Assembly (NCBI RefSeq): GCF_001469875.2
Contig: NZ_LOPW02000010.1
Location: 62,001 to 126,000, forward strand
Source of the DNA: Haloferax marisrubri
Lineage (GTDB): Archaea > Halobacteriota > Halobacteria > Halobacteriales > Haloferacaceae
DNA: 64,000 nucleotides
Direction of reading: 5' to 3'
Both the position numbers and the translations under genes were made by a program. This document shows, one piece after another, positions 31,048 through 32,063 of this stretch. Every line of letters begins with the position of its first letter. Position 1 is the stretch's first letter. A model generated the notes under the pieces. That model searched no databases and was not told where the DNA came from. It saw nothing but the letters and a program-made list of their open reading frames with translations.

Positions 31048-31115
31048 ATTGTGGGGGACGGGAACGGGGTACAAAGCAGGAGGGGGCGGCGAAAATAAAC
31101 GCTTATCAGTATCCC

Positions 31116-31126
31116 CACTTAAGAAA
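31116..31126 (+). promoter_or_regulatory. TATA-like element of the tRNA-Lys gene
   Basis: CACTTAAGAAA is located shortly before the mature tRNA 5' end, in AT-rich DNA between two GC-rich genes. Confidence 0.45.
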
Positions 31127-31133
31127 TCGCTGA

Positions 31134-31241
31134 GGGCTGGTAGCTCAGTTAGGCAGAGCGTCTGGCTTTTAGCGGGACTACGCGAGTCGCGTGGTTTCGG
31201 AAGACACCAGACGGTCGGGGGTTCAAGTCCCTCCCAGCCCG
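31134..31241 (+). tRNA. tRNA-Lys (anticodon UUU) with a 34-base intron
   Basis: Cloverleaf fully read: acceptor GGGCTGG/CCAGCCC, D stem GCTC/GAGC, anticodon stem TCTGG/CCAGA, T stem GGGGG/CCCTC with loop TTCAAGT, discriminator G. Anticodon TTT is at 31168-31170. The intron, 31172-31205, starts after position 37. A canonical bulge-helix-bulge forms: central helix CTTT (31166-31169) with GAAG (31200-31203), 3-base bulges TAG and ACA, and a long intron hairpin closed by CGCG-AGT-CGCG. Cutting inside each bulge after base 2 gives exactly these ends. CCA is not encoded. Confidence 0.95.
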
Positions 31242-31388
31242 TTTCTGCGACGAACTTCGTGCGGAGTGACGCTGTTCTTCCAACTTCTACGTCAGCGAGC
31301 GACAGCATCCCCGGGCTGTCTTTCGAACCGCGTTGACTACTTTCACTCTGTACCTGCCGTTCTTTCCAAACAGAATCCTTGTGGAGCT

Positions 31389-31823
31389 ATGGACGAGATT
31401 AGTCACCCAAAGCAACGGGGACAGTGTAGTGAGGCAGCGATTCTCTTCGAATTCACTCGCCGTGGAGTCACCGTATTAGAGCCATTTGGTGACAACGAAC
31501 GGTACGATTTCGTCGTCGAAATCGCTGGTACATTCTATCGTGTTCAAGTGAAGACTGGCCGGTTGACCAATGGGCGAGTTCAGTTTGAAACTCGTAGCTC
31601 AGGTACCCTAACTCGACGAGTCAAAAAAGAGGGATATGACGGGCAGATAGACATCTTCGCGGTTTACGCTCCTGAGATTGAGGAATCGTATATCGTACCA
31701 ATTAACGAAGCGCCGAAAACATCCATGGGTCTCCGTGTTGAACAAGCACGCAAGAAGTCTCCAAACGTCAATTGGGCTGATGAGTTCGAACTCGACAGCT
31801 GGGTTAACAGCGTCCGGGCGTAG
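31389..31823 (+). CDS. PD-(D/E)XK nuclease-like protein (intron-endonuclease type)
   Basis: 144 residues. The order GQCSEAAILFEFTRRG, then EPFGDNERYDFVVEIAG, then YRVQVKTGRL fits the PD-(D/E)XK core: N-terminal Glu, Asp in YDFVVE, and QVKTG supplying the catalytic Lys. It closely resembles the family of group I intron-associated homing-type endonucleases (I-Ssp6803I-like), which also occurs as free-standing genes in archaea. DNA composition is visibly AT-richer than both flanks, and it sits 147 bases after a tRNA gene, so horizontal acquisition is likely. The C-terminal helices are normal. Start ATG at MDEISHPK. Confidence 0.8.
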   Translation: MDEISHPKQRGQCSEAAILFEFTRRGVTVLEPFGDNERYDFVVEIAGTFYRVQVKTGRLTNGRVQFETRSSGTLTRRVKKEGYDGQIDIFAVYAPEIEESYIVPINEAPKTSMGLRVEQARKKSPNVNWADEFELDSWVNSVRA

Positions 31824-31829
31824 GCTGTG

Positions 31830-31970
31830 TCATTCCTTTCGTATCTCTGCTTGTAGCGGCGGTTCTAACACCGCAAGCTCGTAGTACTCACCTCCCTTTC
31901 GAAACCCGAGCACCACCTCGTCAACGTCCGTCTGTTCCCCCAGAGTTAAACGAAAACACTCGTCTGACAT
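31830..31970 (-). CDS. 46-residue orphan small protein in the AT-rich patch
   Basis: Frame from ATG 31970: MSDECFRLTLGEQTDVDEVV, then a GFRKGGEYYELAVLEPP segment and a short helix to the stop. It shares the lower GC of the nuclease-like gene and is convergent with it, 7 bases apart. A TATA-like GATATAGTTG lies about 35 bases upstream on the minus strand. Looks like a small beta hairpin protein; family not recognised. Confidence 0.5.
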   Translation of the reverse strand: MSDECFRLTLGEQTDVDEVVLGFRKGGEYYELAVLEPPLQAEIRKE

Positions 31971-32063
31971 CGATAGTCCCTGCACACATGTTACTGACCC
32001 AACTATATCTTGGTTTGGGCAGATACCGACCGTGAACCTCCGAAACTGGGGGTGTGTGGCTTT

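Follow-up and report, generated by a model that had tools for sequence, protein, structure and literature searches.

The window that we analysed (a stretch of 64,000 nucleotides of Haloferax marisrubri DNA) carries an intron-containing tRNA-Lys(UUU) gene, followed on the same strand by a free-standing nuclease gene that lies in an AT-rich islet. The features of the locus are as follows.

31114 to 31133, forward strand: 20-bp 5' flank associated with the intron state in close Haloferax relatives (flank identity comparison)
31134 to 31171, forward strand: 5' exon of tRNA-Lys(UUU), the last base being A37 (Rfam, ARAGORN)
31172 to 31205, forward strand: 34-nt intron at 37/38 (Rfam, precursor fold)
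31206 to 31241, forward strand: 3' exon of tRNA-Lys(UUU) (Rfam, ARAGORN)
31270 to 31867, no strand: AT-rich islet with the nuclease gene (composition, alignment to relatives)
31389 to 31823, forward strand: free-standing PD-(D/E)XK nuclease gene, PF11645, I-Ssp6803I-like (profile, fold, residues)

The tRNA-Lys gene was recognized by Rfam RF00005 (positions 31134-31241; 57.4 bits; E = 1.1e-10), the match showing an insertion of 34 nt after position 37, and by ARAGORN, which reported tRNA-Lys(TTT) with a 34-nt intron when introns were allowed and detected no tRNA at this locus when they were disallowed. In the computed fold of the precursor, the anticodon helix is extended and bulged (z = −5.5), as expected for an archaeal bulge-helix-bulge (BHB) intron, and the BHB motif, as drawn by inspection, comprises a 3-nt bulge (UA/G), four pairs (CUUU with GAAG) and a second 3-nt bulge (AC/A). 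Judging from this modelled fold, the intron is of the archaeal BHB type, inserted at 37/38, and its splicing is predicted. A group I intron or any other Rfam element was excluded, none occurring among the Rfam matches of the region. These results refine the first-pass annotation, which had brought up the homing endonucleases of group I introns: the intron is of the BHB type, not group I, and does not contain the nuclease gene. The mature tRNA is identical with and without the intron, as established by comparing the exons, and therefore the intron can matter only for the DNA or the precursor.

The nuclease gene runs from an ATG at 31389 to a TAG at 31821-31823 and encodes a 144-amino-acid protein. 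Its start lies exactly 147 bases past the end of the tRNA gene, as first annotated. The description of the product as a PD-(D/E)XK protein resembling intron endonucleases was likewise borne out by its match to PF11645 (PDDEXK_5; E = 2.2e-36; 125 bits for a curated cut-off of 26), the sole Pfam family matched (LAGLIDADG being absent), and by its fold, which is that of I-Ssp6803I. The latter (PDB 2ost) is the sole convincing sequence relative with a solved structure (E = 8e-9, or 3.5e-13 using a profile), and the 2ost chains were the best four Foldseek matches (TM 0.68-0.77) of the AlphaFold2 model of the nuclease (pLDDT 86). The catalytic set E15, D40, Q53 and K55 is present in the protein and near-invariant across its homologs; D40 and K55 align to the D and K residues of 2ost, and E15 faces a Q in the crystal chain, which we take to be an inactivating mutation. 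The pairwise dN/dS with the G091 homolog is about 0.10, which therefore indicates past purifying selection on the protein. The gene, 147 bp away, is outside the BHB intron and not within any group I intron. It is a free-standing endonuclease gene close to an ORF-less intron, which is the arrangement of collaborative (trans) homing.

The AT-richness of the gene, unlike its surroundings, was also confirmed, the GC content being about 0.50 across positions 31250-31999 and 0.65-0.73 on either side. The alignment to nuclease-less relatives ends at about 31269 and restarts at about 31868. Right after the nuclease gene, a small ORF occurs on the minus strand (31830-31985), the DNA of which is conserved both in relatives that have the islet and in those that lack it.

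Homologs of the nuclease, the surroundings of which were fetched regardless of the neighbouring genes, were found in 52 of the 148 genomes of the family and 137 of the 292 genomes of the class. A tRNA gene lies within 1 kb of 146 of the 157 distinct homologs; for a random gene the chance of such closeness is a few per cent (an estimate for a genome of 3.7 Mb with about 50 tRNA genes). The 11 homologs with no tRNA gene within 1 kb are five bacterial and three divergent haloarchaeal ones, L072, L288 and one at a contig end. The five main classes (n = 143) are the Lys (12), Asn (44), Asp (48), Pro (35) and Arg (4) types, and the nuclease and tRNA genes are on the same strand in 142 of these 143 cases. 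On the nuclease tree, the tRNA label changes 11 times as compared to a shuffled mean of 88.9; the Lys and Arg types form single clades, and the Pro and Asp types nearly so. Hence, the link between the nuclease and the tRNA gene is not a local accident, and the nuclease clades follow the identity of the tRNA (Lys, Asn, Asp, Pro, Arg). The main linkage is to a particular tRNA gene and not to introns as such, the Asp- and Pro-type nucleases adjoining intronless tRNAs. The same-strand linkage to particular tRNAs speaks for a protein acting on RNA, i.e. a nuclease that cuts or processes its paired tRNA, for example a toxin. We regard this reading as highly improbable, because an intron absent from the mature tRNA could not protect it and because the protein has the fold of a DNA endonuclease.

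As regards the introns, the first-pass annotation had called for a survey of their co-occurrence with the nuclease. The tRNA-Lys intron occurs in 23 of the 148 genomes of the family, and an intact Lys-type nuclease was found in 8 of these 23 genomes versus 0 of the approximately 123 intronless ones (Fisher test, 1e-7, a significance overstated because genomes were treated as independent). One further intron-containing genome has a frameshifted Lys-type copy, and the Lys-type protein of L281, also beside an intron-containing tRNA, bears the K55N change. The intron without an intact nuclease, which the annotation had named as an observation against intron spreading, was seen in 15 of the 23 genomes. 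Such genomes would be expected if the nuclease decays after fixation of the intron, but they also show that it is not needed to keep the intron. In the genus g25, the nuclease gene is located about 50 bp upstream of tRNA-Lys, as opposed to downstream in the other genera, and tRNA-Lys contains the intron throughout; therefore, the nuclease-intron partnership was kept across rearrangement. The same pairing at tRNA-Lys occurs in Halorientalis and Halorussus, which belong to other families.

Several lines of evidence bear on the movement of the intron within Haloferax. First, the intron-containing Haloferax fall into two separate groups on an rpoB tree, each of which has intronless sisters, and all examined Haloferax loci correspond to one genomic site. 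Second, eight close relatives display each of the four possible pairings of intron state with downstream flank type, and therefore recombination or repeated gain or loss is needed. Third, the 20 bases 5' of the tRNA split the intron-containing from the intronless alleles (identity 0.90 versus 0.66), with no difference beyond 60 bp; four sites in this flank partition the two sets of alleles perfectly, as opposed to zero sites for any other 4:4 grouping. Judging from these alignments, the intron-linked 20-bp flank appears to mark a short exchange tract in which the intron was carried along. Fourth, G107 has the intron without the nuclease, and its downstream background is the same as that of the intronless G127, a pattern which would be expected if a nuclease acting in trans yields a short tract.

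Similarly to tRNA-Lys, tRNA-Asn is associated with both an intron and a nuclease: an intact nuclease was found in 16 of the 32 genomes with an intron-containing tRNA-Asn, versus 2 of the 113 intronless ones, three more of which have a broken copy (Fisher test, 9e-11, again overstated because genomes were treated as independent). When the Asn-type nucleases from all sources are considered, 28 of 30 are intact with the intron versus 7-8 of 14 without it (Fisher test, 0.002-0.008). The defects comprise stops, one frameshift, one N-terminal truncation and, among the intronless cases, three K55E changes. This pattern of decay would be expected if cells tolerate an active enzyme only when its site is interrupted. 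The signal consists of discrete inactivating changes; we rejected relaxed selection next to intronless tRNA-Asn, as the pairwise dN/dS values resemble those of the intron-containing pairs. About seven seemingly intact Asn-type nucleases adjoin an intronless tRNA-Asn (H. aquaticum, H. tebenquichense, H. kocurii, Atlit-26R, L076, L285 and L307), the exons of which are identical to those of intron-containing genes. These seven or so cases are real counter-evidence to immunity conferred by the intron; in the case of L076, the true partner may be the intron-containing tRNA-Thr on its other side. At the Arg-type loci the intron is present in four out of four cases, the background intron frequency not being cleanly readable from E-values.

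The spared resident copy and the linkage would also be accounted for, by inference, if the protein defended the cell against integrative elements by recognizing attP-like tRNA fragments, tRNA genes being common attachment sites. This defence role is extremely improbable: the single PADLOC match is to a generic homing endonuclease model, and nuclease decay at the intronless Asn loci would be unexplained.

At some Asn loci (L212, L213 and L214 from G121, G130 and G085, respectively, and L216 from G048) the intron-containing tRNA-Asn occurs in tandem copies. At L216 a broken nuclease gene lies between the two copies, an arrangement which suggests that nuclease insertion leaves duplicated tRNA genes.

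The Asp-type nucleases adjoin intronless tRNA-Asp genes, often lying between two full tRNA copies. The anticodon-stem pair 28-42 is A28-U42 in 27 of 28 cases in Asp clade A, versus 1 of 21 in the other Asp clades, which have G28-C42 in 20 of 21. This contrast also exists within the genera g11 and g23, and therefore it does not reflect only ancestry. The two exceptions are L332, the nuclease of which has a stop, and L232, in which 11 of the 64 near-invariant residues are changed. At least seven genomes with no Asp-type nuclease have the A28-U42 allele as well, as would be expected after nuclease loss, other readings being possible. The compensated swap of the stem pair in Asp clade A thus appears to be a second form of immunity, in place of the intron. 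In Asp clades B and C and in the Pro type, intact nucleases adjoin tRNAs with no visible protection, and no immunity candidate was found. The nuclease-linked tRNA-Pro(UGG) has a highly variable anticodon arm/stem (18 forms among the linked genes), and a distinct arm might make the Pro type immune, but nuclease-less Halorubrum have the same arm. The view of this tRNA-Pro(UGG) as an extra copy proved wrong, the second match being tRNA-Pro(GGG). Pro-type nucleases (L090, L099, L103, L030 and others) have two or three tandem domains per chain, of which the later ones are degenerate.

The linkage to tRNAs being broader than that to introns (Asp, Pro), the many intron-containing genomes with no nuclease, and the likeness of the swapped stem pair to a resistance allele are compatible with a homing endonuclease that targets tRNA genes and spreads nothing but itself, the introns and stem swaps being counter-adaptations gained otherwise and the intron not being mobilised. 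We consider this unlikely, in view of the exchange tract and patchy distribution of the intron in Haloferax and of the joint occurrence of intron and nuclease in several genera. Furthermore, if repair uses the donor allele as its template, the intron would be copied in any case after a break at the intronless site.

Partial copies of the tRNA-Lys 3' end occur about 60-120 bp downstream of tRNA-Lys in several Haloferax relatives (L031, L032, L120, L060, L121 and L035), and from their sequence they look like attachment-site scars of former integrative elements. Together with the AT-rich, bounded character of the segment, they favour a passive islet, i.e. a nuclease gene that is leftover cargo at an integration hot spot (the tRNA 3' flank) and an intron that is coincidental. 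The earlier suggestion of an islet at a tRNA integration site holds in part, insofar as these att-like copies exist. In the window itself, no integrase gene was found and an att duplication was ruled out, there being just one match. A passive islet, which we view as quite improbable, leaves unexplained the matching of nuclease clades to tRNAs across the class, the upstream placement in g25, the coupling to intron state and stem allele, and the decay at the intronless Asn loci.

From these lines of evidence, we propose that the product of the ORF is a free-standing homing endonuclease directed specifically at the anticodon arm of the tRNA-Lys(UUU) gene and acting jointly with the BHB intron (probability of about 0.68). 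Free-standing (collaborative) homing of the BHB intron is the most economical account of the data. Within this model, we infer DNA cleavage, the target position, the immunity and the direction of transfer. The enzyme would cut the intronless tRNA-Lys gene at the anticodon stem-loop, which is a natural inverted repeat in the DNA, and the resident gene would be safe since its recognition sequence is interrupted by the 34-nt intron at 37/38. The cut allele would be repaired from the donor, thereby copying the intron, a little flank and sometimes the nuclease gene, as supported by the sequence traces. The intron would then be spliced out, leaving the mature tRNA unchanged, so that the insertion is presumably nearly free. 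Lastly, the nuclease would decay and be lost after fixation, and the intron may remain, as supported by the distribution. The sister clades appear to act likewise on tRNA-Asn, and perhaps tRNA-Arg, and one Asp clade appears to use a recoded anticodon-stem pair, not an intron. In the tRNA genes next to the relatives, the probable cut site is often altered by an intron or a swapped pair, which suggests a contribution of selfish tRNA-cutting enzymes to the spread of tRNA introns. Thus, the hypothesis of the first-pass annotation that the nuclease spreads the tRNA-Lys intron fits the co-occurrence, the patchiness, the short tract and the kinship with I-Ssp6803I, but the linkage is primarily to the tRNA.

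I-Ssp6803I, from the group I intron of the Synechocystis tRNA-fMet gene, shares with our protein the Pfam family and is the nearest solved sequence and fold, as well as a tRNA-intron homing endonuclease. It is encoded within a bacterial self-splicing group I intron, whereas the gene described here is external to an archaeal BHB intron of 34 nt. LAGLIDADG endonucleases drive the mobile BHB introns of archaeal rRNA genes; the likeness is an endonuclease-driven mobile BHB intron in archaea, as proposed here, but they belong to another nuclease family, are encoded within the intron and operate in rRNA genes. The collaborative (trans) homing of phages, including T4 MobE/nrdB, has in common with our locus a free-standing endonuclease near an ORF-less intron at the proposed cut site (PMC3984707, PMC2988022). 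It is known from phages and group I introns, whereas the present case concerns cellular archaea, BHB introns and tRNA genes, with predicted cleavage. T4 SegB is also a free-standing homing endonuclease in a tRNA gene region (PMC2988022); unlike our nuclease, it belongs to the GIY-YIG family and acts in a phage tRNA cluster on an intergenic target, with no intron.

In the model of Randau and Soell and that of Caldiarchaeum disruption, a tRNA intron protects a target site in the tRNA gene (PMC3293823, PMC4090602); the threat is an integrase, whereas we propose that it is a linked endonuclease, which in addition promotes the transfer of the intron. Published work attributes tRNA disruption to integrative elements (PMC3293823), and according to a review, how tRNA introns transpose has yet to be explained (PMC4090602). 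No earlier report of the present association was found in the literature searched, which omits most subscription journals. If the nuclease cuts intronless tRNA genes, part of the spread of tRNA introns would have an ordinary driver, testable in Haloferax, where endonuclease-driven intein homing has been studied experimentally (PMC10643990). There would also be a reason for the favoured 37/38 position, at which the palindromic anticodon arm is broken, and for the lineage-specific swaps of anticodon-stem pairs.

More tentatively, it is possible that such tRNA-specific selfish nucleases act class-wide, with one anticodon arm per clade, and are a main cause of the compensated stem changes and of how haloarchaeal tRNA introns are gained, spread and come to lie at 37/38, reaching bacteria and phage tRNA arrays. 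The bacterial (Thiomargarita, Parabeggiatoa) and phage relatives also adjoin tRNA genes, most often tRNA-Asn, and the nuclease gene ends at most about 15 bases from the tRNA in about ten phage contigs; such closeness is less surprising in phages because of their tRNA arrays. In the IMG/VR contigs (L380-L417), homologs occur within phage tRNA arrays, frequently abutting tRNA-Asn. The giant tRNA introns that appeared to enclose the nuclease in two phage contigs (L402 and L413) were set aside as probable ARAGORN artefacts, with no Rfam support. A divergent haloarchaeal clade of PF11645 (L251, L252 and L253; about 30% identity) has no detected tRNA nearby. In a bacterial homolog from Pyrinomonadaceae (L094), the 3' end of the reading frame extends into a tRNA-Ala gene.
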